A stretch of DNA of 51,867 nucleotides from a virus. Positions 13,414-51,866 of this stretch are shown piece by piece. The notes beneath the pieces are model-generated. The model worked only from the letters and a program-made list of their open reading frames with translations, was not told the origin of the DNA and ran no database searches. A program made the translations under genes and the position numbers. The stretch's first letter is position 1. Every line of letters begins with the position of its first letter. Location: the IMG/VR virus record IMGVR_UViG_3300028769_000012, positions 1 to 51,867 of that record; one strand, written 5' to 3'.

Positions 13414-13419
13414 AATATT

Positions 13420-15317: not shown

Positions 15318-15486
15318 ATTAAATGGTGGGAATCCTGTATTATTGTGCTCTAAATGTAGTACGATTATAAAGTATTCTCATCATTTTACAGAAGATGAAA
15401 CTAAAGCTGCAAGTGGGGAAATTAAAATACCTGCGCAGTTTTGTGATAAATGTGAGGAGAAAATGAAAATCTATGGAGATGAATAG
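15292..15486 (+). CDS. small zinc-finger protein, 64 aa
   Basis: The best start is the ATG at 15292 (MAKSKAKFKLNGG), which overlaps the previous gene by 26 bases. Two CxxC pairs (LLCSKCS and QFCDKCEEK) flank a His-containing segment, a zinc-ribbon arrangement. The N-terminus is basic. It is the last gene of the early operon, followed by a strong terminator, and ends in TAG. A DNA-binding or transcription-related role is possible. Confidence 0.65.
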   Translation: MAKSKAKFKLNGGNPVLLCSKCSTIIKYSHHFTEDETKAASGEIKIPAQFCDKCEEKMKIYGDE

Positions 15487-15620: not shown

Positions 15621-16328
15621 ATGCCTAATGAATTAAACCAATTTGCAACATTCAAACCTATAGAAATAGCTAATGACTCTCGAGCACAAGAAGCTAGACA
15701 ATATTATCAAGATAATGGACTTGTTCCAGACAATCCTTTTATGACTAAATTTTTAGATCAAGCTACTACTACACAATCAATTCCTAATATCTCTACACCT
15801 AGTAAAGATACCGATATAGCTGCGTTATTAGTTAATAAATTAACTAAAGTTCCAATGTCTACTCCTGAAAAAGCATTAAATGATATTAATGTTAATGCTT
15901 CTGTTTTTACACCAAAAGTATCTGTTTCTCAAAAAGCTAAAGAAGCAATTAAATTCTTTATGGGTAAAGGTTATACTAAAGAAGTAGCTTCTGGTATTAC
16001 TGGTAATCTATATGCAGAATCAGGTTTAAATCATATGCGACCTCAAAATAATGGCGGTCCAGGATTTGGTTTAGCTCAATGAGAAGGACCAAGACAAGCG
16101 GATTTTAAACGCATTATGGGTAAAGATGTACATTCATCTACAGCACAAGATCAATTAGAGTTTATTAATTGAGAATTAAATAATACACAAAAGCATGCAA
16201 AAGCAGCTATATTACAAGCTAAATCTCCAGCAGAAGCAGCTTATGCATTTGCTAATAAATATGAACGTATGAAGAAATATAATAAAGAACGTGAATCTTA
16301 CGCTAATACTTTTTACACAACTAAATAA
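15621..16328 (+). CDS. phage tail lysozyme (endolysin or tail-associated muramidase), two TGA-Trp codons
   Basis: With TGA as Trp this is a 235-residue protein. Residues 1-100 are a Pro/Thr-rich linker without a signal peptide. Residues 105-232 are a phage tail lysozyme domain that cleaves the peptidoglycan glycan strand: AKEAIKFFMGKGYTKEVASG, then NLYAESGL with the probable catalytic Glu133, then GGPGFGLAQ-W-EGPRQ. Trp154 and Trp184 are encoded by TGA; the first is the conserved Trp of the AQW motif. Under the standard code the enzyme would be cut in the middle of its catalytic domain, so it should be active only once TGA is decoded. It is isolated by terminators on both sides and has its own promoter. 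Confidence 0.88.
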
Positions 16329-16334
16329 AACAAG

Positions 16335-16372
16335 AAAATCCCCTAGCCTTAACGGTTAGGGGATTTTTTTTT
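16335..16372. terminator. bidirectional terminator between convergent early and late units
   Basis: AAAATCCCCTAGCC (16335-16348) pairs with GGTTAGGGGATTTT (16354-16367; one G-T pair) around TTAAC, then a T-run to 16372. It follows the lysin stop by 6 bases and touches the stop codon of the convergent late gene, so it can serve both strands; the T-run is better on the + strand. Confidence 0.85.
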
Positions 16373-19300
16373 ACTTTCTATCAACAGTTGGTAAGATTTC
16401 CATCATATTTCAATTACCTCTTAAAAACGTAACTAAATCAGATTTACCTGCAAGTACACTCTTAAAATCGGTCATAGTATTAGTCATAATTGAAGCAAAA
16501 GCTGGTTCTCAACTTAATGCTCCAAATACACCACCAAATGGATCAAACTCCCCAAAACTCTTCATACCTACTTTAGTAGCTAGTTGTTCGTATTGAGACA
16601 TTTCTTTCATTGGTTTCATACCATCTTCTCCTTTAGACATTAATATATGTCCTAATCAAATCATCATCATAGCGATTAATAAATCATGTAACGCAACTTT
16701 AGCATTAGCTAATCTTTGAGGATCAGTATTCTTTAAATCACCAGTAGCAAGAGCTCTAATAGTTAAACCTAATGAATACATTAAACCTTCACTAGGAGAA
16801 CCAATTCAAGCATTAGCAGGAATAATAGGATCTTTAGAACCTAATTGATCTTTAGTTACTTCTTGCATTTCATAATTACCTTGTTCATCAATTACAGGTT
16901 TACCATTTTCATCAGTAGTCATTTTTTGATAATATAGAATTTTATTTCCATTATCATCAATTGTAAACTTTTGACCCATATAACCTCTAGGAGATTTTTG
17001 ATCAGGTTTACCAAAATAATATTTAACTTTAGATGGTCAGAATGTTAAGAATTGTCCAAAAATAATACCCATTGCAGTATGTTTAATCAAAGGTGACATA
17101 TCTTGATCATAAAATCCATAAGCCATATCAGAAAAATTCTTAATACTACCACGTTCTTTAGATGTGTATGCTGATGGAATATTATCTTTTTCAGTTAAAA
17201 GTTTTTCACCAAACGAAGAATTCTCACCATTAAACTCGTCAATTATAGTTAAATACAAACTACGTTGTTTATTGTATAATTCATCAGATGCATTATATTG
17301 ATATCCATTAGCTTCGCGATTTTTAAAATAATGAGCATATCTTTTATCTTTAGAAGGATCATATTGTAGTTGTCCTTCTGAATTTAAACTATGTGCATCA
17401 TAACAACCATCATGAATCATTTTTGCAAATAATAAGGATAGTCGATTTACATAATCTGGTGCAGTATTGAATCAATACATATTTTCACCCAAGAAGTTAA
17501 ATCCGAATTTATCAACTTTCTTTCTATCAACAATGTGATTTAAATCTTGATTAGCAAAACGCATTTCTAAGTTGATAGCTTCATTTAAGGCATATGTTTC
17601 TTTATTAGGATCTAATACTAATTTATAAGCTTTTGCAAGATGATCTCCATTAAAACTATCATCTCCATAAATTTTACTTCATGCATAAGATGTATTCTTA
17701 ACTGTTCCAACAAGTAACTCTTTAATTAATAATGCAGGTCTTAATGAAATTGCCATTAAACTCGATATTTTTTGTACCTTTTTAATAACAGCTAATGCTT
17801 CTGCACCTTCTTTATCAGCTACTAACGATTGACCATATACAGCAGTTTTCATTTGATTAAAGAAATCTTCAAGAGCTTCTGTAAGTTCTTTAGTCTTTCC
17901 TGAACTTCATCCGTGAAACTTCATTACTGTTAATGCAGAATGTATATTAGGAAGTACTGTATTAAAGTGTTTTTCTCTAATATTTTCAAAAGCATATTTT
18001 AAACCAATAACATCTAAGTTTACTTCAAAAGCATTTACTCCATATTTTTCAATTAAACTTAATCTATAATTGTCATTAGTATTTTTAAATTGATTATACA
18101 TACGTTTAAATCCATTAACTGATTCATAAGATTCAACACGTTGTTCTTCTGTAATATCTCTAGGATCTAATAAACCTTTAGTATCATCTCAGAATTTACC
18201 AACAGTTTTTCTAAAACCATCTGTAGTAATTGATTTTCATTTACTTAAACTCATTTTCTTAACAAGTGGAGCTTTAAATAAATCAGATCCAATAGATGTT
18301 CATTCACTAAAGTTTTCGTGCTTTTTAAATTCTTCTAATGTTTCAATATTGTATTTATTTATAGGACTATATTTAAACATATTGAATACTACTGTTTCTA
18401 AATAAGCTCTTTGAGGATTATCAAGATTAGATTTAAGATCTCATGGATTTTTAAATCTAAAATCATTATCAATAACACCATTATGTTGTTCAAAGAAAAC
18501 TTTGTGATATTGATCAGCATCTCCAATAATTATTTTTTGAAGAGTAGAACGACCTATTGCTTCATAGTATTTATTAGTTGCACTTACAATTGAAGCAGAT
18601 TCTTTATTAAATTCAGAAGCAATTTTGTTATGTGCAATGGTAATCATACCGTGTAAACGAGTCATAGCTTGTGATTGTAGAGCATCGGCAGTATTGAAAT
18701 GTTGACCTTGAAATAAACCTACAATCTTATTACCATTCTTATCATATTCTGGAGATGTTCCCATAACCATAGTTCTAATTCAATCAGTAGCATCACCAAT
18801 TCTAATTCCATATCTAGGAGTTGCATAATCAAATGTATCATTTAAATTAGTGTAATATGATACACCTAATGATACAAGATAGTATATATAATTCAAAGGG
18901 TCTGAGAAATCTTGAATTTCAGTTTGGTCTTTATTTTGAAGACTGTTTCCATATTTATCAAGAAGTTCATTTCTAAACTTTAAAAACCATTGTAATTTAT
19001 CATTAGCTGTAGACATTTCTTCATCATCTTGACGATATGAAGCAATTGTTGTTTTTAACGCAGAATTATCAATATTACCAGCTTTAGATAAAATTTCACC
19101 TCATATGGTTTTCATCATATCAGATGCTTTTAAATTTCCTGTTTTAAAATTGTTTTTAAAATCAGATTTAACTTTTACAATTTCATCACCTAATAAATTA
19201 AAATTATGAATAGCTTTATCAATTGGAATAAAATCCGCTTTATCACTGAATCAGTTATATACAGATACATTATTAATTGTTGAACCTTTTAAGTTATCAG

Positions 19301-21041
19301 TTAAAGCATTTAATACTGTCAAAGCTTTCATTATTTCAATATTAGCTGTACTTGCTGTAAGTATTCTACTATCATTAGCTAATGATTTATTAGGTTTAAA
19401 TTTACCTAAAATAGTATTACCTCTAGTAAATTCATTAACTTGATCTAAAGCATTAATAGTAATTGCAATAGCTTCTACACTTCGAGTATTAATGTTTCTA
19501 AATAATAATACACCAGCATGAGATAATTCAGGAATTGAATTTTCATCATTTACTATTTCCCATTCAGGTGTTAAATATTTATTAAGTACTCTTTGCATTT
19601 GAATTGGAGCTTCCTTACCATTAATAAGAATTCCATGTTCTTTATTTTTAGCAGCTTTAAATGACTTAACAAGGTCATTCATTTTACTATCTTTAGCATT
19701 AGTCCATTTTGTTACATAATCTTCAACTTTAGCTTGAAATCTTTCTTCCCAACCTAGTTTAGTTTTATCTTCTTCAATCCTTTCAGTATTTAAATTATTT
19801 ACAATATAAATCTTAGCTTGACCTTCTGAACGAGCAATAGCCTCTTTAACTAAATTTTCAACAGATTTACCTTTTGTTTTAGTTTTATAATCATAAGCAG
19901 GAAATGCAATCTTACAAGTATCAACAATTTCAGAATCTAAATCAGTAGTAGATAAATGATCCCTTTTGATTTTAGAAGGAATAAGAGTTCTTAAATCATT
20001 ACTCATATTACCTGAATTATATTCTAATCCTGATGATGAATTTGATCTGTCTGAAATTTCTTCTAATGTAATAGCGTTAGGATTTATTTCAATATTATTA
20101 CCTTTTTTAGGAACAATTAATTGTAGTATATTTAAAGAAGATTGAGCTGTATCAACATAACTATCTAACAACTGACGTTTTATTCCTAAAATATAATCAG
20201 TTTCTAATTTCTTAGATGAATCCCAATCAGAATATTTATTTCTTGAAACTTTAATTTCATATAAATTAGGAATTCCTTTATCATCAATTTCTAATACATG
20301 AATATTTCCATTCATATGATTAGCAGTACTGTTTACAGATTGACCTATTTTAATAATACTATTAGACGATTGCATTTTTCTACCTCAAACAATTAAATCA
20401 TTTTTAAGTGTAGCAATCGCTATTTTGTAATTGTCTAAATTAAATTCTTTTTTCTCAAAGTTAGACGTTCCATCTAATTTATCAAATTCTTTAGATGCAA
20501 ATTGATTATAATTATGAATCTCTTTCATAAGATTCTCTAAATACATATCAATATCTTTATCCTTATATAATTTACCAGCATCAGATAAAGCCAATCTTAC
20601 AAGATTAGAACCAATTTTACTCATTTCCATCATTCTATTATCAAGAGATAAATTTAAATTAACTCTTGCCATTAGAACAGCAGCAGATTCATTAGGATAT
20701 TTAACTTTTAATAAAGCTAATTGATTCTTTTTAAAATTTGCTTCAATAAATTCGGGGGAGAGTAATTTCTCTTCCCCGTTTATATTATGTGTAAGTTTTA
20801 TAAAACTATAAGGTGTTAATCCATCAGATACTTTAGGATCGATATTTGATTTTGCTGTATTATCTTCTAACACATTTAAAGTTAAGTCTTGTAAAGATTG
20901 GGTTAGTGTATCTTCAGATCTACTGTGTTTTACACCCACTTCTTTATCCAGATTGTTCTTAACAAAATCTGTTAGTTCTTTATCCGAATTAAAAGTTGCA
21001 TTAAATCCGTCTATATTTAAATAGTATTTACATTTATCCAT
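16371..21041 (-). CDS. giant late protein, 1556 aa, last gene of the late block, at least 16 TGA-Trp codons
   Basis: Reading TGA as Trp joins all fragments in one frame from ATG 21041 to TAA 16371; I checked the joins and found no in-frame TAA or TAG. TGA codons sit for example at 20385, 19251, 18441, 17907, 17037, 16656 and 16410. TGG predominates in the N-terminal third and TGA in the C-terminal third. The N-terminus (MDKCKYYLNIDGFNATF) resembles the start of the next late protein. The protein is mostly helical and Lys/Asn-rich. A hydrophobic helix (ALHDLLIAMMMIWLGHILM) and a glycine-rich segment lie near the C-terminus. No catalytic motif is recognised. Position next to the RNA polymerase genes suggests a virion protein delivered with the polymerase, or a polymerase subunit. 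Confidence 0.8.
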
Positions 21042-21052
21042 TTTATTTTATT

Positions 21053-24000
21053 TTAATAACTGCAATCTTGTATCAGTTGATCATTTTTTATTAATTGTTT
21101 TATCTTTCCTGATACATTAAACATTTCAAATGCGTTTGTAGTATCAATTAATCCATCTTCTGCACCTATTAATTTAGAACCAAACTGAGTCATTATACTA
21201 TCAATTGGTTGACCTAATAAATCTATTGAATCTTCTCATTTTAAATCAGCATCTAAATTTAATAAATCAGATATTGATTTTTTAATAGATTCATTAAATA
21301 CTTTCTCAGTAAATAATTCATCAGGTTTAATATTGCTTTTAACTGTCATTGTTAATAATTTAACAAAAGTTTCCTCTAATTTATCAGCATTTATATCTCC
21401 ATTATAACTCTTAGATATTTCTGAAAACATAGGATGATATTGTACTGAATTCACAATTCTATAATAAGAATCAGAATCATTACTTTTCATTGTAGCTAAT
21501 ACTAAATGTAGAATCTCGTGTAATGGTTCTTCCATTCCAGCTTTATCAACATTTACATAAACTCCACCTTCATAAACAAATGCCGCAGAATTATTTACAT
21601 CTAAATGTGTAAAGTCTTTTAAATCATCATTTGTAATAATATTGATCGGAACTCCGAATTTATTTTGAAGAACATCAATCATAGCGTTAACTATTTCAAC
21701 TGAATCAGATTTACTGTAAGCAGTAACATATGAACTCTTAGAAGGATTACTTTGAGTAACAACATCTTTAACTTTTTCAAAATTATCGGTTGCTCATTTT
21801 GGTAAAAACAATTGTTTTATATTAGTAGCATCTACTCCAATAAAAAATCGTTCTGCTTTAACATGATTTATTTTACTATCGTCTCCAACATTAGGAATAT
21901 TTGAATAATGATATGCAGAAACTAATAGTTTATCTCCAATCATTTTCTCAACAATAAAAGGTTTAGCGTTTCCTTCTACAAGTAAATAAGAACCTGGAAC
22001 TATATATTGAAATACTTTATCAAAACTTGTATTATCCAATGCAATTTTTACTGTATTAAAATCATCTTTTAATATACCTTTTTGTCCATTAATAGGATTA
22101 CCTTCATACATATAAAGTTTATCGGGAATTGAATTTCATTTATAGCGTTCAGCTAAAGACTCTTTATATTTCTGTGTAATATCTATATCAGATGATTCGT
22201 ATTTAGATTCAGATATAGGTCTACTATAAACATAACCTGTTTTACTTTGATAAACTTTAACTTCTTGACTATTAGTATTAGTTATATTAGGAGTGTTTCC
22301 AAGTTTAAATCTGTTTTTAATTATTCAACCTTGAGCAAAAGATTCATTTTGTGATTTATTACTCAATAATAAATATCTTGATAAATTTAAATCTGATGTA
22401 GCTACATCAATATAACGATTAACTCCTCCAAACTCAGATGATGTTTTAATATGATCATAAGCTGATTCAAGTACTTTTAATACATTACCAGTTGAAGTAT
22501 CATATATAAAATCATCTTTATTAATTGTAGATTGACTATTAATTTGCTCTATAGAAAATTCTGAATTTTTAAAAGCTCCATGATTATTTTTCTTTGGACT
22601 AAGAAATATTTCTTGCATGTTATCTAATATCTTACCATTTGAATCTGTTTTAAACACATCACTAATTGATTGTTTAACACTAACCTTTTCAGTAGCTGAT
22701 ATAACATGATCAATACTTGGAGAAGTTACATATTTAATACTATTTTCCATAACATATTTTACAGTATTGTTCTTAGTTAAATAATATACAATTTTCTTAT
22801 CTCCTGCATCAGATTGACTAGTACCATGAGCTAATACAATAGCATCAACAAGTTTATCATCTTCTTTAACAAGAACGTGTGCACCATTCATTACTCCAAA
22901 TTGTACAGGTTGTCAAGCATCATTATTTTCAATTTCTGAAATCGTATGACTTTTAAATGTATTTGTATCAACATCTGTTCCGATTGAAAAGTTTTTAATA
23001 TCACTTACTGGAACTTGTTCTCCATTAACAGTTAACATAGAACCATTTATTTCAGAAATTTCTCTATACGTTTTACTTCTTCCAACTTTTACTTTAACTC
23101 TACCAGATTTAATTAAATCAAGCATAGTACCTCACTTAACTTTACTAAATTTATTTATAGATAATTCAGATTCAGTTTTACTTGATTTGTATACAGGTTT
23201 AATTGTAGTATCATCAACTTTTCTAGAATATATATAATCTGATTTAAGTAATGATTTACGTGTTGTTAATCCATCCCCACCTGAAATTGTAGTAATAACT
23301 TTATTACCATCAGTATCTACTTTATAATCAAAAAAGATTTCATAAATAGTTTTATCTCCAAATTTAACTCCAATTAAATCACCTTGTCTAAGATTTTTAA
23401 TTAGAGTTTTTTCAGCAGGTTGATAATAATAATCACGATTTTCTTTTAATACTTTAGTTTCAAAGTTAGATTTTATAGTGTAAGCTGAATCTCTTGTATT
23501 TATTAAATCTGATACACCGTTAACATCTATAGTATTTTTATAAGATGCTTCATTATAAACAAATAATAATTTACTAAGTAATTTAGATTTATCTCCAAAT
23601 CCTGGATTAATTATATTATTTAATATCTCAGTTCTTTGTGCATCAGTACCAGTTCTAAGAGTTTCAGAGTTTTTAATGTAATTATCATTATCGTATAAAT
23701 TTAATGCCAACTCAGTTAAAGCCATTATCTTATTTTGTTCATCATAAGCATAATTTAGATTTAAAAATATATGACCTTTATGAAATTGAGTTTTTACGTT
23801 TTCATTTGCAATTCCAGCAATAACCATTTTAGAGGTCCATGATGGTTTAGGAATATTAAGTCCTTGCATTAATTTAATTACATTCTTATCTTTAATCAAC
23901 TCCGCAGGGCTGTAAAGCCCCACGGAATTTTCATTAATGTTTGTAAGTTCAATATTCTCAATTGAATCAAATTGTGGAAGCATTTCCATAATTGATTTAA

Positions 24001-24121
24001 GTTCATCCAAACTTCTACCTGATAATAATTTTTTAATTTCATTAATATCAGTAACAGGTTTTTCAACTGAACCTAAATTATATTTCTTACCTCCAACGTT
24101 AAGTATTATTTCACAACTCAT
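21053..24121 (-). CDS. large late protein with zinc-metallopeptidase motif, 1022 aa
   Basis: One frame from ATG 24121 (overlapping the upstream stop by a base) to TAA 21053, with TGA-Trp codons at 23132, 22913, 22325, 22136, 21794 and 21236. The first 500 residues have repeated beta-rich segments around KVGRSKTYREI and similar SH3/KOW-like stretches (for example LIKNLRQGDLIGVKFGDKTIY and GSYLLVEGNAKPFIVEK). Residues 868-872 are HEILH inside EEPLHEILHLVL, followed about 35 residues later by KLEETFVKLL. This is the HExxH plus downstream Glu pattern of gluzincin-type zinc peptidases. It could process the giant virion proteins encoded next to it, which is inference. Neighbours carry RNA polymerase and helicase domains. 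Confidence 0.78.
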
Positions 24122-33075: not shown

Positions 33076-33082
33076 TTTTTAT

Positions 33083-41530: not shown

Positions 41531-41538
41531 ATTATTGT

Positions 41539-43392
41539 TTATTTACTATTGAAAAAACTGAAATCAGCTTTAACTTGTGGAGTTTCATATTTTTGCAGAT
41601 CTACTCTAGCATCTGTTAAGTTTTGTTGTTTATTCTGCATATGACCTGCAATTGAAGCAGCATATATAGAAGCATCTCGTTTATATGGAACTGCAATCAT
41701 TCCTTTATAATAAGTGGTTGTCATATCAGTTCAACCAGTAGGAGCCTTAACTTTATTATCTTTTCATACTGTTTTTAAAGCATCTGATACAGTATCTTGT
41801 TCTTTACTGTCCAAGGCTTTAACTTCAGAATTATTATCTGCTTCAGAAGCACCTTCAGCAGTATAACCATACATTATTAAGAATGGTTTTATATTATTGT
41901 TTTCTCGTACTACAAAATCATTACCAACTTGAACATATCCAAATCCATGACGTTTGTAATAATCATTGATTATAGCAGGAGACCAATCATTTTTATGTTT
42001 TTCAATTTCTGATTGAACTTCATTAAATTGTTTAAGTGCATTATAATTAACAGTACCATCATTATTAGACGGCATATATACTTTAGCAGCAGTTCCACCA
42101 TCATAAATAATATCATTAGCGCCTTTCATTCCAATAATTTTATCACCAAATGTAGCCTTACTCATATCAACAAGAGAACCATTTTTAGAATTCATTATAT
42201 TTTTAAATGTAGTCATACCTAATGGAGTTCCATCTTCTGTAGCTAATCTTGCAGCACCTGTAACATGTAATATCATTTTCTTATTAGTTGTAATATCATT
42301 TCATTGCATTGGAGCTGAACCAGTTTTGCCATTATGTAATAATTCAAAAGGTGATACATTAGCTAATCCTTTTGCCGCGGCTGAAGCTTCTTCTGTAGCT
42401 CCTGGTAATTTCTCTGGAGAAATCGCAGAAGATGTTTTAGCAGTTGTATTAGTAATCAACATATCTAATATAAAATCTCTTGGATCTTTACCACCATTAA
42501 CTATAGCAGTTGCTTTTAGTTTTTGTTGAGCATGAACATCCATTGTTTTTCATAAATAGTCTAAAGCTTTATCAATATGATTTCTTTCTGAACTATTTTC
42601 TGTAATAACTTTATAATGATCTCCAGGAGTGTTAATTATTTGATTTAAACTTTCTAAAGCAGATTGTTGTTCTTTTGTTGGACCTTTTACTGATACTTGT
42701 GATTTTAAAATATCATACTGTCCTTTAACTTGATCTTTAGAATAAAAATTTTCATTATGAGTATCTTCTGTTCCTAAAGAAGCAATTAAATCTTTAAGAT
42801 TAGTTTTTATTTTATCTAACCCAATAGCATTATTTGCAACATCAAATATTGAATTTTGTCCTGATAATTTAGGATTATATTGTCTTTCATTTAATAACTC
42901 TGCAACAGATAATAGTTTATATTGATCTTTGTGTTTATCGTATTCGTTAACGTTAATTGCACTAACATTTCCTTTAGCATCTTTACCATAAACCATATCA
43001 TTATTTACAGCAACTTCACCATAACCTCCTGCAGCAGTAGCTGTTTTAGCAGCTTCATCTCAAGCAGATTTACTTTGTTTAAGTTCATTAATTTTACCAA
43101 CTAATCTTAATGACATTGCTCTATTATTACTTTGAGCATATGGATACATACTTCCCGAATTAGTTGATTCAATTTTAGCTAATTCAGAAACAAATCCGTT
43201 AACATCATTTACTAAACCTTTACCCATTAAATCTTTAAATACATCATCATCTAACATAGATGAAATAGTATGTTTACTTTCTTTAGATGAACTAGATGAT
43301 GAAGAAGTTGCTTGTACAGGTTGTTGTTCAATGATGGGGGTGAATGTTGCAAACCCACCCCCTTGTTGAAATTTATTTATATTATATTTCAT
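41539..43392 (-). CDS. late virion-type protein with N-terminal FQQGG tag, 617 aa
   Basis: Under the TGA-Trp code the frame runs from ATG 43392 (overlapping the upstream stop by one base, TAATG) to TAA 41539. TGA codons lie at 43060, 42550, 42301, 41764 and one more near 41734. It starts MKYNINKFQQGGGFATF; the same FQQGG string recurs within the upstream protein. A Ser-rich low-complexity patch (residues about 30-37) follows, then mostly helical sequence. No enzymatic motif is seen. By position, between a 1302-residue protein and the helicase/polymerase giants, it may be a packaged cargo or ejection protein of a crAss-like virion; this is inference. Confidence 0.72.
43336..43362 (-). other. 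G/C hairpin right after the start of the 617-aa gene
   Basis: GGGGGTG (43336-43342) pairs with CACCCCC (43356-43362) around a 13-base loop, 31-57 bases after the start codon. The stem encodes part of the FQQGGG tag, so its G/C content is partly dictated by the glycine codons. Confidence 0.35.
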
Positions 43393-46300
43393 TATTTTGC
43401 ATTTACTTTCTTATTGTTTGATGCTATTGTCTCATAAAATAATTTATCTGAATCTAAAGCATTTGTTTCAGTTTGACTCAAATCTATATTATGTTTATCC
43501 ACAGGATTATTAACACTATGAATTACTTTATAAAATTGTTTTCTGTCTGCTTCTACTTTTTTAGCTATTTGTCCACCTTTCTTTAAAGATTGTCCGTACA
43601 TCATAGCCATTTGAATATTTTTTAAACGTTCATTAAATGGTTTAATTTGAGATTCTTTAGCTTTAAGAGCAGTTTGTCATTTAGCATAATCAGATGATTT
43701 TTCCCAATCAATAGGAGTTATTCCAGGAGTTTTCATTTGAGTATCATAATTCTTTCTAAATGAATTATTAGTTTCATCAGCTAATGTATTATACTCTTCA
43801 CCTAATTGTTTATATTTAGGATCTTGTAAAATATTAAACATTCCAGTTTGACCTTCACGTTGTTTTTTCATTATATCGTTTTTCTGATTAGCTAATAATA
43901 GAACATTAAGAGCTGTATTCTGAGCTGAACTTTGAAGCGCATTTATTCCGTGGATTTTTCCAAATGCGTTAGCGGCTAAACCTCTATTCTTACCAAGAAC
44001 TTCAGTATTATATTTAGCGGTATTAGCGTTCATTTGTAATTGTTGTCCACGCATTTGATCAAGTCTTTGAGTATCTGCCATTTGAGCTTTATCTTTTAAA
44101 ATATTACCTTGATTAATTCCAGATAATCTAACACTAAATCCTTTATCAATGTCAGCAGTTGAAGCAGCCATTCTAGCAGTTTTACTGTTAACAGCAGCAG
44201 CTTGTTTGTCAGCTTCTAAAGTATGTGGTCTATCAGCTCTAATATAAGTATTTGACATATAAGGTAATGTGTACATACTATCTGCAACACCTTTCCTTTG
44301 AGCATTTCCAATATCTTTATTAGTTCTAACTGTATTTAAATACATTGCTGTATTTAATAAATCAACTTTATTAAGTTTAGGAAATTTAATTCCTTCACTT
44401 TGTTTATTAACTGTTGTTCCAGATTGTGTAGTTGGTGTAGTTGTGTTTCCAAATAAATTAGTTGGAAGTTTTACTGCGGCAACATCAAATCCTTTATTTT
44501 TAGGTTCTAATCTTGTAGCAGATTCATTAAATTTATTAGTCATATAATTATGATATGGACCATATTTATTATCAGTAGCTAATCCTTTAACTTGTGCTAA
44601 ATCTTTTACTGATACATTACTTCCAGCAGATTGAATAAATTTATTTAAATCTTCTTTATTTCTAGCTAACCAATTTTCATCAAGACCATTAACAAAATTA
44701 GTGTATTCAGGAGTATACCCTCCATCTTTAGTTTGCCATGTAGATACATCTTTTAAATCACTATAAGGTAAATAATTACCTGAACCTGGATGTTTATATG
44801 TAGTATTAGCTGTTGGTGCAACTGTAACTTTAGGTGCAATAGTACCAACTAATTTAGTAGGAACAATTGGTTTATTAATAACAGGTGCAGATATAATAGG
44901 TTGTTTTGTAGAATCAGGCAATGTCATAGATTGACCTTTATTATTAGTAAATGTATGACCAGAAGCTCCGATTGTTTCATTAGTAAATCCAGCCTTTCTA
45001 AGTTTACCTTCTTTTAAAGCTTTATCTAATACAGAAAAATCCATTTTAAATGCTCCACCTTGTTGGAATTGTATAACTCCACCTTCTTTATGTTCTACCA
45101 TATTTTTATTATATTTGTTTCAGGCTTTGTTTAAACTTATTTTTCTTTTATAATCAGTGGCTTTATTAGCTCTATCTAATCCAAGAATAGCTTTTACTTT
45201 AGGATCTTTAAGTTTTTCTAAATTCTTTTGTTCACCTTGACGTAATTTACTAATAGCACTTTCTTGGAATTTCTTACCATATCAAGAACGTGGATCAGAT
45301 TCTTCTTTTATAACTCGTTCTGATTTAGCTTTGTTATCATTCATACCCGTAACCTTAGCTACTTTACCTTTAATACCTAACCAACCTTTATCAATTTTAG
45401 CAGCTTTTTTAGCTTCATCAAGAGTTTCTATTTCAGCTTTAAGTTTAGAAATAGCACCTTCATCAGGAGTTTCTTTTGCATTTAAAGCATCTAATACTGA
45501 TTTTTTAGGTGCAATTACTTTATCAAAATGTTCATTAATTGCAACTTCTGGATCAGTTCCTTTAGGAATTGTAATTTTAGATTCAACACCTTCTGGTACA
45601 TTCTTTAATTTAAAGTCCGTACTAGCTTCTTGTGTTTGAATTTTAGTAGTTCCAGCGTGTACTTGTGCTAAATTATATAAACCTTTAACAGCTTGCACAC
45701 CATGTACTAAACCTCTAGCATCTTGAATAGAAACATTTCCTAATCCACCTTCTTCTATATCTTGTGCAGTTTGTCTAGCAGCTGTTCCAGCATTTACTAA
45801 ACCATAACCTAAAAATGCAGGTTTTGCTAATTTTGCAGCTTTTGATACTATTGATGATGCTGGTTTGAATGCTCCTTTTACTAAAGCTTTAGTTTCTGGA
45901 ATTCCATATTTAGCAATTTTAGCAACTTTTTCAACTTCACTTAAACCCTCAGCTGATTTTACAATAGCTTTAGCTCTATTTAAATTTAATAATTCTTTAC
46001 CTACTAATTCAACACCTTCTGCATCTTTAATTGCAGTTTTTGCAATTTTAAGAATATGTTCAGCCTTTTCAGCTTTAGTTGCAAGTTTAGCTATTTCAAT
46101 ACCTGTTTTAGCACCTTTTAAACCAAGTTTAGCAGATGCTGCTCCTGGAATTAATGATAATGCTGTAAATCCTAAATTCAATGCAGCATTTCCAGCAGTT
46201 TCTCCAAATCCATGTCCACGTAATATATCTGAACCTAATGTTGCAGCTGTTGATGTTAAACCTCCTGCAAGTCCGGCAGCGGTTCCACCTAAACTTACAA

Positions 46301-47300
46301 CATCTCCACCTAATGCAATAGCATCTAAATAATCTGCTGTAGATCCTTTTCCAGATAACATATCTCCAACTTTACCACTACCTGTAGCAGTTGGTTTTTC
46401 TTTTGGATGAAAATAAGTTGTAGTTGTTTTACGAATATATGCTTGTGGTTTATGTGGTGTTGGTACTACTGGTGCAGTTTTTGCAGCAGTTGCTGCTGTT
46501 AAAGCAGCTGCATCATCAGCAGCTTTCTTTTCTGCATCTAATTCAGTTTGTGTTTTTGGTGGAATCAAATAATCATTCATTTTCCAACCTAATGCATATG
46601 CTTTCTCAGTTACTTTATCCCAATTAGGATTTGGTTCACTTAAAGCAAGTTTTAATGCCTGAGCATTATCGTAATCTTTATAATCGTAAGAATCTTTATT
46701 CTTAGTGTAATCATTTAAATAATCATCAACTCCTTCTTTTGCCCAACCTAATACTCTAGCTTTTCTTTCATCATTAGTTTTGAAAGTATTTAAATGTGTA
46801 GCAAGTGCATTAACATCATCATGATAATGTTTATTTGATACAATATTAGTTAAACCTTGTACTTCTTTTGAATACCCTGTTTGCGCTGTTGGAGTTGTAG
46901 TAGAATTTGTTGACTCTATGTGTGTTCTTAGTGCATTCATTGCTGAACTAAGTGATTCTTTATCAGCATCATTACCTCTAATCTTAACACCTAATCCTAA
47001 CATATCTTTACTAAGAGGTTCGTCATGACCTGTTCAGTTGAATTTCTTTAATTCTTCTGGAAGTTGAGATGTGTCAATACTATATGTTTGATCTGGATTA
47101 AATTTTAAAGCTTTATCCATAGCTCCACTTTTTACAAGAGCAGCTACTTGATCGTAAGCAGGCTTAGCTCTTCTAGCTTCTTTAGAAGACATCGAATACA
47201 AATTATCGTATAATGCCTTTTCTACCTGAGAATAATCTTTTGGAGTATTATTTGGATCAGGAGCTTTACTTCCCGTTTGTAATTTTCTTACTAATGCCAT
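43392..47300 (-). CDS. large late cargo/ejection-type protein, 1302 aa
   Basis: ATG 47300 to TAA 43392 with TGA-Trp at 47034, 45282, 45120 and 43677. The N-terminus is MALVRKLQTGSKAPD. Residues about 220-330 are rich in Gly/Ala and hydrophobic (GGDVVSLGGTAAGLAGGL, LNLGFTALSLIPGAAS), able to insert into membranes; a long Lys/Ala helical section follows. From residue 734 a second half starts with MVEHKEGGVIQFQQGGAFKMD, which looks like the N-terminus of another cargo protein, so the gene may be a fusion of two. The membrane-active segment and the position fit an ejection protein packaged in the head or neck, comparable to the cargo proteins of crAss001. The homology is not proven. Confidence 0.75.
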
Positions 47301-47327
47301 GTTTATAATTTTTTTAAATTAAACAAT

Positions 47328-47361
47328 AAAAGGGAAACAGGTTTTTTACTGCTTCCCTTTT
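47328..47361 (-). terminator. terminator-like hairpin between two late genes
   Basis: On the - strand AAAAGGGAAGCAG pairs with CTGTTTCCCTTTT (one mismatch) around an 8-base loop, then ATTGTTTAATTT. It lies between the 98-aa gene and the 1302-aa gene and is the only hairpin in an intergenic space inside the late block, so it may reduce transcription into the giant genes. Confidence 0.55.
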
Positions 47362-47370
47362 AAGGTAGGC

Positions 47371-47667
47371 TTATTTTCTGCCCACGAATACTAGTTTACC
47401 GCCTTTTCTTTGGTAAGTAGGTTGACCTTGTGCTTCTGGAGCTCCACCTTGTTCACCTTGTGCACCTTGAAGCATTTGCATGATCATTTGTGCTAACATA
47501 GCAGCTGCTTCTGGTCCTAATTGTTGAACAATTTGTTGTGCCATTTGAGCAACTTGTTCTTCTGCTCCACCACCTTGTTGTCCACCTTCTGCAGGTGCTG
47601 CTGCCGGAGCTGCACCTTGTTCTGGAGCAGGAGCTGCTCCACCTTCTTGTAAAAATTTTACTTTCAT
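47371..47667 (-). CDS. Gln/Ala/Gly-rich small virion-type protein, 98 aa
   Basis: A 98-residue protein starting MKVKFLQEGGAAPAPEQG and ending YQRKGGKLVFVGRK. The first 35 residues are low-complexity Ala/Pro/Gly/Glu; residues 36-70 form an amphipathic Gln/Met-rich helix (VAQMAQQIVQQLGPEAAAML). Its base composition is richer in G+C than its neighbours because of the Ala/Gly/Pro codons. The FLQEGG start is akin to the FQQGG tags of the large neighbours. Probably structural or cargo; the function is unknown. Confidence 0.72.
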   Translation of the reverse strand: MKVKFLQEGGAAPAPEQGAAPAAAPAEGGQQGGGAEEQVAQMAQQIVQQLGPEAAAMLAQMIMQMLQGAQGEQGGAPEAQGQPTYQRKGGKLVFVGRK

Positions 47668-47675
47668 TTTAATTA

Positions 47676-48254
47676 TTAATTTTTGGATTTTACATATTCA
47701 GGATCAGTTTCAGACTGTACCTGTAAAAACTTAAACATTCTTTTACCTAATGTTTTGTAATCATTATCATTATTAGTTATTGCAGCTTTTTTCGCAAACT
47801 TAATTAATGTTTTAGTATGTGTCCGACTAAATATTCTTTCACCACCAACTAATTCCATTTGAGAATTTCCTTCTGCATCTAACACGTGCATTTTATCTGA
47901 TTTTAGTTTATTATCAGGTTTGAATTCTAGTTCATCACCTTCTTTAACTCCAGAATCTTTGTTTAATTCTAACACATACATCACATTTTGTTCTGTGATT
48001 AAGTCTTCTGATTCAGGTACTCCTTCATGAACTGATATAACGTTCATTTCTTCATCTATAAAAATTATATCTAATGGAATATGAGTATCTTTCATATAGA
48101 AAGAAATCTCATCAGGCTCATTAAATATAAATAACATTCCTTCGTTTTCAGGTAATTCAGTTACACCTTGTAATCCTTTATCATGATCTTCATCAGATTC
48201 AGCAAGTTTAACCGTATATTCTTTATTACCAATCTCTATTTTTATTTCTTTCAT
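47676..48254 (-). CDS. DUF192 family protein with virion-type C-terminal module
   Basis: A 192-residue protein. Residues 1-85 are a DUF192 domain: EYTVKLAESDEDHDKGLQGV, then ENEGMLFIFNEPDEISFYMK and IPLDIIFIDEEMNVISV. DUF192 is a small beta-barrel of unknown biochemical role found in bacteria, archaea and some phages. The C-terminal part carries GGERIFSRTHTKTLIKFAKKA, a module that resembles the C-terminal segment of the 379-aa protein at 49202-50341. The ATG lies within the ATGA overlap with the upstream gene. Ends in TAA, 8 bases before the next gene. No TGA codon inside. Confidence 0.75.
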   Translation of the reverse strand: MKEIKIEIGNKEYTVKLAESDEDHDKGLQGVTELPENEGMLFIFNEPDEISFYMKDTHIPLDIIFIDEEMNVISVHEGVPESEDLITEQNVMYVLELNKDSGVKEGDELEFKPDNKLKSDKMHVLDAEGNSQMELVGGERIFSRTHTKTLIKFAKKAAITNNDNDYKTLGKRMFKFLQVQSETDPEYVKSKN

Positions 48255-48502
48255 TTGGTTAATATCTCAGGGATAATACTATTTAAAATTCCTCCATTTT
48301 CATGATGTCATTTTTTTGCATTTTGAGCAAAAATTGCACGTTTCTTCGTTAATGGATTTTTACTATGTGTAAGTTCTTCTGTAGATTTTCCAGTTTTCTT
48401 TTTAGTTGCAGTAAATTTTCCTTTATTTGCAGGATTAATATGAATACCACCCGATTTAAAACTTTGGATATTATTCATTTGATTTGATATTGTATATTTC
48501 AT
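48242..48502 (-). CDS. small basic virion-type protein, 86 aa
   Basis: With TGA as Trp the frame runs from ATG 48502 to TAA 48242. It contains SFKSGGIHINPANKGKFTATK and NPLTKKRAIFAQNAKK-W-HH. I recall this kind of small basic protein (SGGIH-KP-N-GKFTA-KK-TGK ... ARKW) from Bacteroidota phages; the TGA at 48308 falls at the Trp after NAKK. The second TGA (48251) overlaps the next ATG and is followed by AAG AAA TAA, so read-through adds only Trp-Lys-Lys. The start overlaps the HNH endonuclease gene by 32 bases. Function unknown; basic charge fits DNA contact in the virion. Confidence 0.72.
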
Positions 48503-49118
48503 AATTTTTTATATATTCATTAATTAATCGTTGAGATTTTATATCTCCATCATGAGCAATATAATGACAATATATACACAAAGTTATTCCATTAGTTTCA
48601 TCAAATTCTAATGAGTTATCAATTGATTTTGGAATAATATGATGAGCATGTTGTATAGTTTTTTCAGAATTACCACAATTTTGACAAGTATAATTATCTC
48701 GAGTTTTTACTAATTTTCCTCATTTTCTAAATGCGTCTTTTCTTCCTTCAATATGATTACATTCTTTTCATTCATAATGATTTTTACCTATTGTGTATTC
48801 TTCTGAACATTTTTTACAACAGAAATTATTTGTAGAATTAATAAGATGTTCTTTTCTATTAAAATTTGAACCACAATTAGTACATTGTATTGCTATTATA
48901 TCTGAACTTTTATTTTTAACTTTACATTCATGCGAACAAAATTTAGAATCTCTATATTCTTGAACTTCATACTCTTTATTACATTCTTCACAAATTAATA
49001 TCTTTCTTAATTTTCTAGAATTATGTGAACATTCTTGACTGCAATATTTTCTAGTTTTTATCCCTTGAAATTCAGCTCCACAATGTTCACATATTTTAGA
49101 TTCTTTCTTATAACCCAT
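48471..49118 (-). CDS. HNH homing endonuclease with zinc fingers, two TGA-Trp codons
   Basis: A 215-residue protein read with TGA as Trp. Residues 1-105 hold three Cys-rich fingers (CEHC...CSQEC, CEECN...CSHEC, CTNC...CKKC). The HNH nuclease domain follows: RK-W-GKLVKTRDNYTCQNCG, then HAHHIIPKS, then NGITLCIYCHYIAH, with paired CxxC motifs and the His-His-Ile of the active site. Trp117 and Trp133 are TGA; Trp133 is the conserved Trp before the metal-binding core, and under the standard code the whole nuclease domain would be lost. It sits between late genes with its own promoter-like element. It is a mobile gene adapted to this phage's recoding. Confidence 0.87.
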
Positions 49119-49139
49119 ATTTTATTTTTTGATATTATA

Positions 49140-49147
49140 CAAAAGTA
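49140..49147 (-). promoter_or_regulatory. -7 promoter element of the HNH gene
   Basis: On the - strand TACTTTTG fits TAnnTTTG and lies 21 bases before the HNH ATG. The leader TTTTGTATAA, A-run, AAAATATGGGT is close to that of the GIY-YIG gene on the other strand. Confidence 0.5.
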
Positions 49148-49201
49148 TAATAATTTTTCCATATAATATCTATAAACTGATTAAATTTTTAATTACAAAG
49201 A

Positions 49202-50341
49202 TTAAGCTTCAACAGTTTCTATAAGTCCTGTATTGTCTTGAGTATTTTCTAATATCTCATAAACTAACAACTTACCAGCTTTAAGTGCTATGTCTTCATC
49301 TCCATCTTTATATTGTTTAAACATCTCTTCTAACTTGTCTGTAACATCTTTATTAAAAATGATTTCATTAAGTTCAATTTCTGCGTGTTGAGTTATAGCA
49401 CCACCTTCATCCATTGTTACAACCGGAATACCTTTATCAGTAACTTGTTCTGAAATTTCTTCTGGCAGATCGTGTTTTCTAGCATGTAATGCTCCATCAG
49501 GTATAACATTAAATTTACCACCATCTTCAAATACATCTATTTCAGGAACTTCAATTACTTCTATGATCGGTTTAACTCTTAAAGAATAATTAACCCGATT
49601 TTTAATATTAGTCATTTGTAGTTTACTTCCGCGTTTTGCAGCTAATATATTAGTTGTTATACCTCCAAACAATTTCTGTTGATTTTTGGTAGCGATGTCT
49701 CCAAATGAATTCGCAGAAGCTAACATATTCTGTTTACTTTGAAACATAGAATTACCCGCAAGTAAATTCTGTTTATCATCATATTTAGTCAAATTGTTAG
49801 CATTTCTAGTTTTACCAGCTCAAGTACCTAATAAAGTCTGTTTCTTTCCAGCATTAGTATTCATATTAAATGAATATGCTCCAGTATCTAATCCAGTAGT
49901 ACCTTGCTTTTTAGCTGTAGTTCCTGCAAATTTATTTAATGTTGTAAGAGCAGTAAGACCAGCTCCGATTCCCATTAATGCAGGATTACCAGATTTAAGC
50001 ATCATACCAGCTCCTTTATCCATAAGTCCCATTGTACCCTCTTCTAAATCTGAGCCAGTTTCAGCACGTTTTAAACCTGCTGCTTGTAATCCAGTTTCTA
50101 ATAGTTGTGGAGCTTCTCCAAGTATTTCAGATCCTACAGAAGCAGCGGGTGCTGCTCCTGGGATTTGTGTTGAACCTGATTTAATAGTAGATCCATTTGC
50201 ATTCATACCTAAGTTTTTATTAAGTCCTTTTATAATTTTATTTATATCTAGACTATTTGTAGATAAATATGAATTCTTAGAACTTAATTGTTGTAAAGAT
50301 CCAGATGGTGTTTGATATTTTTTAATTAATTCTTTAGGCAT
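49202..50341 (-). CDS. late virion-type protein, 379 aa
   Basis: One frame from ATG 50341 to TAA 49202 with a TGA-Trp at 49820 (QTLLGT-W-AGKT). The N-terminal MPKELIKKYQTPSG is similar to the starts of other cargo genes here. Residues about 85-155 are Gly/Ala-rich and hydrophobic (MGLMDKGAGMMLKSG, ALMGIGAGLTALTT). The C-terminal region reads FEDGGKFNVIPDGALHARKH, then ITQHAEIELNEIIFNKDVTDKLEEM. I have seen such a VIP-GALH/QHAEIE module in Bacteroidota phage structural proteins. It overlaps the upstream structural gene by 8 bases. Probably a packaged or neck-associated protein; exact role unknown. Confidence 0.72.
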
Positions 50342-51866
50342 AACTTATAGTGAATAATGTTCTTAGAGCATTAATGACTGCATATTGTGTACCATCATAT
50401 TTTACTCGTATTTTAATATATTTATCTCTAATTTTCATTTCATTTGCTTTAGTAAATAATAATTCATTATTTTTAACATAAGCATAAGTAAAATTAATTG
50501 GTTGAATTTGAATATCTCAAGAATCTTCCATATATTGCATATTACCTTTTACTCTACCAAATTGTTTAAGGTTTAAACCTTGTTGATAACTGTTAACTAA
50601 TTTTTCTTTAGTTTTATTATGTTCTTTAATACTTATATCTTTAGTACGTATTAAATTTCCATAAAATGAATTTGGTAAATTAATATCAAAATATTCACTA
50701 TTAGAATTACTATCTTTTTGTGTAATAATATAAGGAAGTTTTGGTGTTAAAGGTTTTGCAATTAAATAAAGTCTATAGCGTTCATCTAAATCTGTGATTC
50801 CAGTTAAATTAACTCCATTAACATTATTTATTGTGATGTTATTTAATTTTAATATTAAATCTTTATCTTTATTCCAATCAAATCCTTCGCCAACAACTTC
50901 ATAATAAAATGAGTTGGGTTCTGCTAAATTAGATATAATTTTTAAGTTATTAAATATTTTCTGAACTCCAGGAATTCCATTAGCAACAAATTCAAATTCG
51001 AATGGATATTGGGCATCATACCAATAAGTTGGAAGAATTGTTCCTTGCTCTTCTTCGAATCCCGCAAATCCGTGTTTATACAAGTAATTAGATGCATTTT
51101 CATGCTTCTCTGTATTTGCAAAGGTATAAAAAATATTATTTATATTTTCTGAAAATTCTGGAAACCATGTATATTGAGTAACCCATTTGTTTGTAAGTTC
51201 ACTATGACATAAATGTCAAGATACATTATTATATTTAAACACAAACATAACATCTTGTTTAAATGCGTTATAATGTGATTTTACAAAATTTACATTTATA
51301 CTATTATCATAATCAGATTCTTTTAAATTAATATGATCATTTAAGAATTTTTGAATTTTCAAATCAGATATAACTTCAAATTGTTGTCCATTAGTTCTCC
51401 AAATCTTTTTAGCAACAGTATCAATACCGTAAATAAACTTAGATGTTTTAATTATAGAATCTGCTCACATAGATCCAAATGTATTTGATAATACTTTAGG
51501 ATTTTTAGGAAGTACTGTATCAGTATTAATGTATACATTATCTCCTTGTGCATTTGTCATCATTGCTCTTTCGTTTACAGGAATCATTAATACTCCATGT
51601 TCCATAACAGCAATAAGTGTTCCATATCATTCCTCTAATTTTACAAGTTCACCATGTTCAAGAGTATAATCTTGATAATTTGGAGATTCGAATATACGAG
51701 TTCCATTTACAAATGATGATTGTTGTAATTTATTTGAATAATTGATTCTATTTGTAAATGAAGTTTTGATAAAAGGAACATCAGGGATTTCAAAATAATT
51801 TTTATCTCCTAATGATTTACTAATACCTCCATTAATTATATGAGATTCAGGTAAACTATCTTGCAT
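50334..51866 (-). CDS. crAss-type tail/neck structural protein, possibly 5' truncated
   Basis: Read with TGA as Trp (codons at 51627, 51465, 51216 and 50517) the visible frame has 510 residues from an ATG at 51866 to TAA 50334. Only one base lies beyond that ATG, so it may be an internal Met and the gene may start outside the window. The protein is beta-rich with Asn/Tyr/Phe-rich strands (GIDTVAKKIWRTNG, FVFKYNNVSWHL, ILPTYWYDAQYPFEFEF). It lacks enzymatic motifs. In crAss-like phages a large beta-rich tail (muzzle/stabilisation) protein lies directly upstream of the cargo and RNA polymerase genes, and this matches in position and size. The identity is inferred from order, not from a sequence match. 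Confidence 0.6.

Follow-up and report, generated by a model that had tools for sequence, protein, structure and literature searches.

The window, a stretch of 51,867 nucleotides from the IMG/VR record IMGVR_UViG_3300028769_000012, very probably covers the place where the early arm meets the late arm in a crAss-like phage whose own tRNA(UCA), charged with tryptophan by the host tryptophanyl-tRNA synthetase (TrpRS), competes with release factor 2 (RF2) at the UGA codons of late genes, while early genes keep TGG. The arms were assigned as early (rightward, plus strand) and late (leftward, minus strand) by gene content and strand only. The decoding of late-gene TGA as tryptophan, claimed in a preliminary description of this DNA, is supported, at the level of sequence, by alignment to homologues and by a tRNA(UCA) gene on the phage.

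A longer phage contig of 213 kb contained the whole window at 100% identity. In this contig, a 1945-bp repeat links a crAss-like part to a temperate siphophage part, so that a single 213-kb genome is doubted. The two parts were treated as separate phages; they may also represent a co-integrate. The crAss-like part closes through the repeat as a circle of 176,645 bp, and a tail-fibre frame stays open across this closure; the closure of the siphophage part was derived from coordinates alone. The window phage is a crAss-like phage of about 176.6 kb that is probably lytic and probably infects Bacteroides-type bacteria. Crassvirales markers were found for the major capsid and muzzle proteins (PF23898 and PF25731, above cut-off) and for the terminase (phrog_6681) and portal (phrog_6547). 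The terminase matched 128 phage records, including, by name, 49 uncultured, 30 Bacteroides, and 29 Flavobacterium phages, and the 754-aa reductase had 134 relatives. The closed genome size falls in the range of 145–192 kb given for the zeta group of crAss-like phages (PMC7886860). A search of the phage collection returned no close relative of the window, and the late 617-aa protein had no match in any of the 12 records searched, none of which was a positive control.

The late arm of the window is dominated by six large minus-strand frames, located at 16371..21041 (1556 codons, 16 TGA, 5 TGG; homologues in MT835470 and MT835492), 21053..24121 (1022 codons, 6 TGA, 1 TGG), 24121..33075 (2984 codons, 12 TGA, 11 TGG), 33083..41530 (2815 codons, 7 TGA, 11 TGG; an AAA/UvrD-type domain in the middle of the protein), 41539..43392 (617 codons, 5 TGA, 1 TGG), and 43392..47300 (1302 codons, 4 TGA, 7 TGG). 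As described earlier, none of them contains a TAA or TAG codon; 42 to 221 were expected per frame from base composition, and the two other frames of the minus strand contain 35 to 369 over the same ORFs. The 2984-codon ORF carries the motif SDFDIDK, whose DFDID core we take to resemble that of crAss-like RNA polymerases, and no Pfam or PHROG match to a crAss-type RNA polymerase was obtained for the giant ORFs. The remaining minus-strand genes are two of 98 and 192 aa (the latter DUF192) at 47371..48254 with neither TGA nor TGG, a small ORF at 48242..48502 (86 codons, 2 TGA), an HNH homing endonuclease at 48471..49118 (2 TGA), a gene at 49202..50341 (379 codons, 1 TGA), and the C-terminal part of the crAss muzzle/stabilisation protein (PF25731) at 50334..51866, which is cut by the window end and has 1419 codons with 11 TGA in the full contig. 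About 60 in-frame TGA codons had been reported, and 62 were counted: 59 in the twelve minus-strand ORFs, two in the lysin, and one in the endonuclease at 6625–7515. TGA is present in 10 of the 12 late genes and not in all of them as had been stated, the exceptions being 47371–47667 and 47676–48254.

The early-arm end at 171..15486 (plus strand) encodes exonuclease-like, ATPase, DNA repair exonuclease, dUTPase, DNA ligase, phosphoesterase, and thymidylate synthase genes together with small genes, and TGA is absent from it where related genomes align. On the early arm, in-frame TGA occurs in three homing endonucleases and, where the arm ends, in the lysin; it was otherwise confined to late genes. 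One of these endonucleases (GIY-YIG, NUMOD3; 6625..7515, plus strand) has a single TGA at 7063–7065, flanked on each side by PHROG and Pfam matches, and measures 296 aa in code 4. The lysin, a tail-type lysozyme (Phage_lysozyme2; 15621..16328, plus strand), contains two in-frame TGA codons, the first of which corresponds to the tryptophan of GLAQW. The sharp code border placed at 15.5 kb therefore holds for ordinary genes only, since a TGA-containing endonuclease sits within the early block. The early plus strand was likewise described as intact in the standard code; 26 ORFs of at least 80 aa in the window agree with this, and two of them are the halves of the interrupted endonuclease. ORFs called with table 11, including the whole-arm set of 162 early ORFs, are by definition free of TGA, and a fair test is thus a count at aligned positions.

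TAG, which had been assigned as a stop to five early genes, ends four of the 26 ORFs (857, 1236, 13413, and 15486), and the fifth TAG (12848) comes just after a TGA stop. This last case is the metallophosphoesterase (12123..12839, plus strand), where the TAG represents a back-up stop in an early gene. Over the whole arm, TGA served as the stop of 17 of the 162 plus-strand ORFs, at least two of which are interrupted endonucleases. The median distance from early TGA stops to the nearby TAA or TAG was 5 codons (one-sided p = 0.004 with two long read-throughs excluded and 0.04 with them included). Such back-up stops may have arisen as a side effect of high AT content.

The identity of the residue at TGA was determined by comparison with two related genomes, one standard-coded and the other TAG-recoded in large genes. 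In a check run on the window genes, tryptophan was the best fit for the 51 residues opposite TGA, 32.7 nats ahead of the runner-up, and the 67 residues opposite TGG, used as a control, gave the same picture. In a larger set, 33 of the 83 residues opposite TGA in the two genomes were tryptophan, which was the best fit by 64.3 nats; the pattern at TGG sites (153 residues) was as for TGA. A sister phage (the record of L034) had TGA at 14, TGG at five, and a threonine codon at one of 20 aligned TGA codons, and TGG at 23, TGA at four, and a glutamine codon at one of 28 aligned TGG codons. At terminase TGA sites, 268 alignment cells from 34 relatives below 95% identity, among which L034 and L195 are one contig entered twice, contained 106 Trp, 80 Phe, 39 Tyr, no Ser, and no Gln. 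Three TGA codons had been proposed to fall on conserved tryptophans. This stood for the lysozyme AQW site only, where three of three homologues (two of them mutually close) have Trp; the GIY-YIG site lies opposite V and S in two weak homologues, and the HNH sites were covered by no homologue. The second TGA of the lysin aligned next to a tryptophan, off by position.

When positions aligned with related genomes were counted over the whole phage, 27 early-arm genes had 66 TGG and no TGA, and 29 late-arm genes had 46 TGG and 57 TGA (Fisher p = 1.6e-16). Within the limits used, late-arm ORFs of at least 60 codons contained 6 + 44 + 96 TGA versus 7 + 33 + 57 TGG. The claim that early genes use the standard code is better put as an avoidance of TGA as a sense codon in early genes. 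The major capsid gene (7 TGG) and the ribonucleotide reductase gene (14 TGG) have no TGA, indicating that the gating does not cover every late-arm product.

The candidate decoder is a tRNA(UCA) of 74 nt, encoded at 30014–30087 of the contig on the minus strand, in the late arm and outside the window; the same tRNA was present in other assemblies (L029, L031, and L032). It was labelled a selenocysteine tRNA by ARAGORN. Selenocysteine tRNAs are about 95 nt long, with a long variable arm and an 8-bp acceptor; the label was rejected for this 74-nt ordinary cloverleaf with a 7-bp acceptor. Its fold energy was no better than that of shuffled sequences (z = −0.62). The tRNA carries the tryptophan identity bases G73, A1-U72, and C35-A36. 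Escherichia coli TrpRS recognises C35, A36, and G73, with A1:U72 as a minor element, and discrimination between C34 and U34 is unnecessary (PMC12135181). Profile searches of the phage revealed no gene of the TrpRS family and none of the RF-1 family of release factors. Upstream of the suppressor gene on the same arm are two ORFs with 6 TGA, five of them in a GNAT-type acetyltransferase ORF, and an arrangement in which this gene heads all TGA genes was thereby ruled out.

In relatives, the tRNA(UCA) occupied one gene slot in all four TGA-coding lineages whose loci extend there; L216, of the same clade, has C1-G72 in place of A1-U72. When the suppressor slots of the TGA and TAG clades were compared, the upstream genes gave no blastp match, and Rfam at the gathering threshold detected no tRNA in seven TAG-clade loci. 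Against a host set of 49 distinct tRNAs from one Bacteroides genome, the D arm of the window-phage tRNA(UCA) was closest to tRNA-Gln, with host tRNA-Glu one point behind. By whole sequence, the tRNA was nearest to other suppressors, followed by the phage's own tRNA-Cys and tRNA-Leu and host tRNA-Trp, and not to tRNA-Gln. The sister phage and 56 other viral loci encode a UCA tRNA with a fifth arm, which is a second, tRNA-Trp-type anticodon arm with the loop UCCAAA. It is conceivable, at somewhat less than even chances, that the opal suppressor is not a mutated tRNA-Trp but a Gln-type body, with a D arm resembling that of the neighbouring clade's amber (TAG) suppressors, re-aimed at TrpRS through the tryptophan identity bases, which would enable a switch between recoded stops; in the five-arm tRNAs, the UCA arm would read the codon and the CCA arm may serve synthetase recognition or another step. 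Literature searches turned up no report of such five-arm UCA tRNAs, of a Gln-like D arm, or of a one-slot placement.

The proposed mechanism builds on the codon distribution, the tryptophan identity, the tRNA gene, and the absence of TrpRS and release-factor genes by profile search. The phage would produce its own UCA-anticodon tRNA from the late arm, and host TrpRS would charge it with tryptophan because G73, A1-U72, and C35-A36 are present. Accumulated tRNA(UCA) would then compete with host RF2 at UGA, allowing full-length proteins to be made from late transcripts with in-frame UGA. Early genes, presumably translated before or without this tRNA, would thus keep TGG, and those stopping at TGA would tend to be backed by a second stop close behind. 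As the suppressor gene itself lies on the late arm, another step must admit the first UGA genes. The order of events is a conjecture, as is a delay as the selected benefit.

The main competitor to such a timer is that the suppressor attacks the ends of host proteins, as proposed for crAss-like phages (PMC7886860; PMC12386605), or that late genes drifted neutrally to TGA while the tRNA was abundant. We regard this as a serious minority view, at roughly one chance in three, for TGA use differs gene by gene, the capsid gene has none, and early-arm homing endonucleases carry TGA too; however, ordinary early genes avoid TGA completely where testable (0 TGA, 66 TGG). Such complete avoidance suggests selection, but drift combined with early translation would yield the same. 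A serine or other residue at TGA in some relatives, suggested by the long tRNA-Ser-like variable arms of UCA tRNAs, is very unlikely. The tRNA(UCA) of L034 is indeed 93 nt long with tRNA-Tyr and tRNA-Ser as its best host matches, but it retains G73 and A1-U72, and TGA in that phage swaps with TGG and never with Ser. Nothing pointed to errors of sequencing or assembly, or to pseudogenes, as the source of the in-frame TGAs, and the chance of this is negligible, given that several assemblies have the same or almost the same sequence and that the sites are kept as TGA or TGG among divergent phages.

A host that itself reads UGA as tryptophan (code 4), with no recoding and an early arm keeping older codon habits, is improbable. 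The companion siphophage in the contig has TGA in most genes and no suppressor tRNA was found there, and the identical 1945-bp tail-fibre piece in both phages implies that they probably share a host. However, relatives of the siphophage terminase occurred in eight genomes, seven of Bacteroidales (Bacteroides, Parabacteroides, Phocaeicola, Prevotella, and a MAG) and one Dyadobacter; the terminase lacks TGA in seven of the eight, and the one in Bacteroides neonati adjoins its own tRNA(UCA). A putative standard-code host is indicated only through these terminase relatives of the siphophage sharing the tail-fibre piece. Moreover, in a code-4 host a phage-borne UCA tRNA would be superfluous, and the early genes of the window phage shun TGA and at times stop at it.

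Borges et al. (2022, Nat Microbiol) reportedly described stop-codon recoding as a brake on lytic genes, in which structural and lysis genes contain the recoded stops and a suppressor tRNA is present. According to PMC10746230, some of their code-4 phages have genes for RF1 and TrpRS as well, unlike the window phage, in which neither was found. The statement that late-gene recoding is known in crAss-like phages is borne out by the account of Crassvirales by Yutin et al. (2021, PMC7886860), where TGA encodes Trp mostly in the late-gene part of the genome, the phage carries a suppressor tRNA, and related branches use TAG as Gln or the standard code, as do relatives of the window phage. A conserved slot and D-arm type of UCA tRNAs are not among the features described in the available parts of that account. 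The zeta crAss-like phage Lera (179,624 bp, 26 tRNAs) has a tRNA-SUP-TCA and reads TGA as Trp in structural genes and lysins; by description, it differs from the window phage in an additional tRNA-SUP-CTA and a putative Parabacteroides host (PMC12386605). Theta ribozymes adjoin phage suppressor tRNAs, with amber making up 99.7% of suppressor cases, and likewise concern phage suppressor tRNAs through their processing (PMC10879173).

Late-gene TGA-to-Trp recoding is thus already published for crAss-like phages, and the window phage adds a further case. This case is cleanly split and makes it possible to compare the decoder, the boundary between the codes, and relatives that use three different codes (standard, TAG-sense, and TGA as Trp). 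If the proposed origin of the suppressor is true, phages would move from one recoded stop to another by redirecting a single suppressor body to a different synthetase, and the UCA tRNAs with two anticodon arms, labelled selenocysteine tRNAs by ARAGORN, would constitute a new tRNA shape.

The window record, a linear 51,867-bp fragment of an IMG/VR phage, was translated with TGA read either as stop or as Trp. The preliminary description held that all 12 late genes become intact only when TGA is sense; the 12 minus-strand ORFs (16371-51866) were reproduced, but TGA lies inside 10 of them rather than in all 12, and two late genes of the window contain neither TGA nor TGG. These ORFs hold 59 in-frame TGA codons and no in-frame TAA or TAG. 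With two further TGA codons in the lysin gene (15621-16328, plus strand) and one in the GIY-YIG endonuclease gene (6625-7515, plus strand), the earlier figure of about 60 is borne out. From base composition, 42, 77, 86, 111, 202, and 221 TAA and TAG codons would be expected in the six large frames, and the remaining two frames of the minus strand carry 35 to 369 of them at these positions. A DUF192 protein is encoded amid the late genes (47676-48254).

Near-identical contigs were found with a late protein as the query. The window corresponds, with 100% identity across its full length, to positions 114088-165954 of contig G001 (213,486 bp) and is also 100% identical to a portion of another assembly, G004 (112,425 bp). 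G001 contains a 6.6-kb stretch in two copies and a 1945-bp sequence in three (6236-8180, 182881-184825, and 211542-213486), an identical tail-fibre segment outside the window. Between these copies lie a crAss-like part (8181-182880) with a crAss-type terminase and portal, GroEL, PhoH, ribonucleotide reductase, capsid, and muzzle, and a siphophage part (184826-206897) with a different terminase, portal, head protein, tape measure, and integrase. Other assemblies of the crAss-like part span 8054-82974 and 70583-183007 (G001 coordinates), and these end 127 bases inside the repeat where they reach it, as expected of an assembly break. Closed via the repeat, it measures 176,645 bp with 29.5% GC, and the tail-fibre frame is open (1556 codons). 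A co-integrate of the two parts is nevertheless possible because assembly G005 (64.8 kb) again crosses the repeat, joining the crAss-like part to the siphophage part. The crAss-like phage and the temperate siphophage have the 1945-bp segment in common, and TGA is sense in both; no suppressor tRNA was detected in the siphophage part by ARAGORN or Rfam.

The amino acid at TGA was determined by alignment with two related genomes, MT835470 (standard code) and MT835492 (TAG sense in large genes). Of the 83 residues opposite TGA across both genomes (10 gaps excluded), 33 were W, followed by F (9), L (8), Y (7), V (5), and others in smaller numbers, with a single S. Of the 153 opposite TGG, 62 were W, followed by Y (21), F (19), I (12), S (6), and less frequent residues. 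In a BLOSUM62 likelihood, Trp was the best residue at TGA by 64.3 nats and at TGG by 117.9 nats; with window genes only, it was best at TGA by 32.7 nats (51 residues in six genes, 18 of them W). The sister phage, represented by the 18-kb record L034 and with a terminase 82% identical, had 14 TGA, 5 TGG, and 1 Thr at 20 aligned TGA codons and 23 TGG, 4 TGA, and 1 Gln at 28 aligned TGG codons, so that TGA and TGG are exchanged in both directions between the two phages. Additional TGA codons of the sister phage face F (3), L, and D. The terminase comparison covered 42 loci plus L034, of which the 34 below 95% identity were counted (L034 and L195 are one contig, and other near-duplicates are present). 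TGA sites there gave W 106, F 80, Y 39, and V 21, with no Ser or Gln, in 268 cells, and TGG sites W 67 and Y 34 in 122 cells. Seven loci (61-82% identity) use TGA and have 0-1 TAG, 26 loci (37-48% identity) have no TGA and 2-21 TAG, and the distant locus L227 has neither. The recoding is real and, as judged by alignment, TGA means Trp, as had been proposed from the sequence.

The use of TGA was compared between the arms of G001 by aligning its frames with MT835470 and MT835492; only TAA and TAG counted as stops, and TGA and TGG were masked. The aligned columns held 0 TGA and 66 TGG in the rightward, early arm (34.3-129.7 kb; 27 genes, 5932 codons) and 57 TGA and 46 TGG in the leftward, late arm (29 genes, 11,497 codons; Fisher p 1.6e-16). 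As to the earlier claim that early genes use the standard code, sense TGA is absent from the 27 rightward genes where related genomes align. A simple standard-code ORF choice (at least 60 aa) gave 162 plus-strand ORFs in the rightward arm and two on the opposite strand. The 162 ORFs end in TAA (122), TAG (23), or TGA (17) and contain 367 TGG, internal TGA being impossible by definition. The median distance to the next TAA or TAG was 5 codons after TGA stops, 7.5 for TAA-ended ORFs, and 17 for TAG-ended ORFs; the shorter distance after TGA had a one-sided Mann-Whitney p of 0.040 with all read-throughs included and 0.0039 once the two longest were removed. When TGA is translated, three long frames of the rightward arm each join over a TGA within a homing endonuclease: G001 45864-46376 (NUMOD4 and HNH_3 over the cut-off, TGA inside the NUMOD4 match), 81875-82618 (HNH match below the cut-off), and 120712-121602, the GIY-YIG gene of the window. 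The lysin is the last gene of this arm, and in the other listed code-4 frames with TGA, the frame is short or the TGA lies close to an end.

Among leftward ORFs of at least 60 codons, those lying upstream of the suppressor gene contained 6 TGA and 7 TGG, those from there downstream as far as 8.2 kb contained 44 TGA and 33 TGG, and those at 130.4-182.9 kb contained 96 TGA and 57 TGG. The major capsid gene (G001 178083-179513) has 7 TGG and no TGA, though TGA is used in most genes of its arm. The ribonucleotide reductase gene (26818-29082), with 14 TGG and no TGA, has perhaps moved between phages. The reductase has 134 relatives in viral contigs, most of the 80 listed being approximately 68% identical, and a search of 12 records for the late 617-aa protein gave no match in any of them.

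The window contains no tRNA gene. ARAGORN found 25 tRNAs on G001, 24 of them at 76.6-88.8 kb in the rightward arm and the other a tRNA(UCA) at 30014-30087 on the minus strand, labeled SeC. Despite this label, the tRNA is a 74-nt cloverleaf with a 7-bp acceptor, A1-U72, G73, and loop CUUCAAAA, and its fold energy is ordinary compared to shuffles (z -0.62). Bacteroides tRNA-Trp likewise has A1-U72 and G73, with loop CUCCAAAA. According to a structural study, E. coli TrpRS reads C35, A36, and G73, and discrimination between C34 and U34 is unnecessary (PMC12135181). Neither an RF-1 family protein (search controls positive in 11 of 14 genomes) nor a tRNA-synt_1b protein (14 of 14) was found in G001 or G004. 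Four odd tRNAs stand in tandem at G001 82862-83211, including one that ARAGORN leaves unnamed, with an anticodon loop of 6 nt, and an 82-nt tRNA-Trp(CCA) with an enlarged variable region.

The UCA tRNA occupies a common slot in G001, L034, L216, and L198, the four TGA lineages with loci long enough to cover it. It follows a homologue of one small gene and precedes reductase or PhoH, all on one strand, and the terminase comes 8 to 12 kb after the tRNA. In L034, an 81-aa ORF lies between the small gene and the tRNA. Among the TAG relatives, a CUA tRNA was located 2.4 to 3.5 kb ahead of the same-series exonuclease gene in L203, L211, and L212 and on the opposite strand in L210; none was found in seven further ones. 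The upstream gene in the TAG relatives has no recognisable match to the small gene. L153, a relative of the siphophage, is TAG-recoded as well, with 9 TAG in its terminase gene, and its CUA tRNA near the terminase (7569-7640) is most similar to those of crAss-like phages. The G001 UCA tRNA was compared by its D arm with the 49 distinct tRNAs from a single Bacteroides genome; tRNA-Gln scored best (12), followed by tRNA-Glu (11), with tRNA-Trp at 3. For the D arm of L198 the scores were Gln 17, Leu 12, and Trp 0. Gln was not the top match when whole sequences were compared. A pattern scan of IMG/VR for a Gln-type D arm with CUUCAAAA returned 37 stretches, and a stricter pattern with a Trp-type D arm returned two. 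These scores and counts fit a putative origin in which a suppressor of Gln type was redirected to TrpRS.

The distinct UCA tRNAs in the 37 stretches comprised 8 of 72-73 nt and 20 of 92-96 nt, the long ones having a hairpin before the T arm with UCCAAA in 19 of 20 and UCCAUA in one. A pattern requiring this second-arm motif returned 58 stretches, five of which were excluded since ARAGORN gave no UCA tRNA; the reversed-motif control returned two, one (L293) being the same tRNA. The pooled long UCA tRNAs (46 distinct, 92-96 nt, at 56 loci within L288-L364, e.g., L300) are five-arm tRNAs, combining a UCA anticodon arm (loop CUUCAAAA) with a tRNA-Trp-type arm (loop UCCAAA) before the T arm. G73 is present in all 46, and the first pair is A-U in 35, G-U in 9, and G-C in 2. 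The second arm has a 7-nt loop and five adjoining pairs, each position being occupied by more than one type of pair, and lies 3-5 nt from the T stem; its pairs were canonical in 215 of 230 cells compared to a shuffled mean of 124.6, the pair closest to the loop in just 34 of 46. The motif was absent from 49 other long tRNAs of the same loci. In one of these tRNAs, whose fold is a cloverleaf with five arms, the 3' half resembles tRNA-Trp genes from named phages (matches in 22 records, none covering most of the tRNA's length).

ARAGORN labeled as SeC both the five-arm tRNA of the sister phage (L034, 3564-3656; loop CUUCCAACC) and that of L168 (9493-9586), a cultured Bacteroides neonati genome; the UCA tRNA of the window phage is not of this type. 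In L168, the tRNA adjoins a terminase with TGA at a conserved Trp, and the terminase frame is interrupted after approximately 285 residues. At TGA sites of 58 five-arm loci (including L034 and L168), the majority residue was W in 70 of 181, Y in 18, and Cys in 12, the frames being unfiltered for real genes. Neither TrpRS nor a release factor was found in the 20 five-arm contigs searched.

Late-gene recoding of TGA to Trp has already been published for crAss-like phages (PMC7886860), and TGA is reported to mean Trp, mainly in structural genes, in the zeta phage Lera (PMC12386605); the window phage adds another case. A literature search, with most subscription papers outside its coverage, returned no paper on phage suppressor tRNAs with such variable arms, a Gln/Trp origin, or double anticodons. 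Lak and jumbo phages are described as having tRNA introns, some possibly encoding another tRNA (PMC6784885, PMC13037316); the five-arm tRNAs may differ from these in kind. The suppressor tRNA findings are the element that a specialist would not expect, and the second arm may serve in synthetase recognition, act as an anticodon-nuclease decoy, or be a relic.
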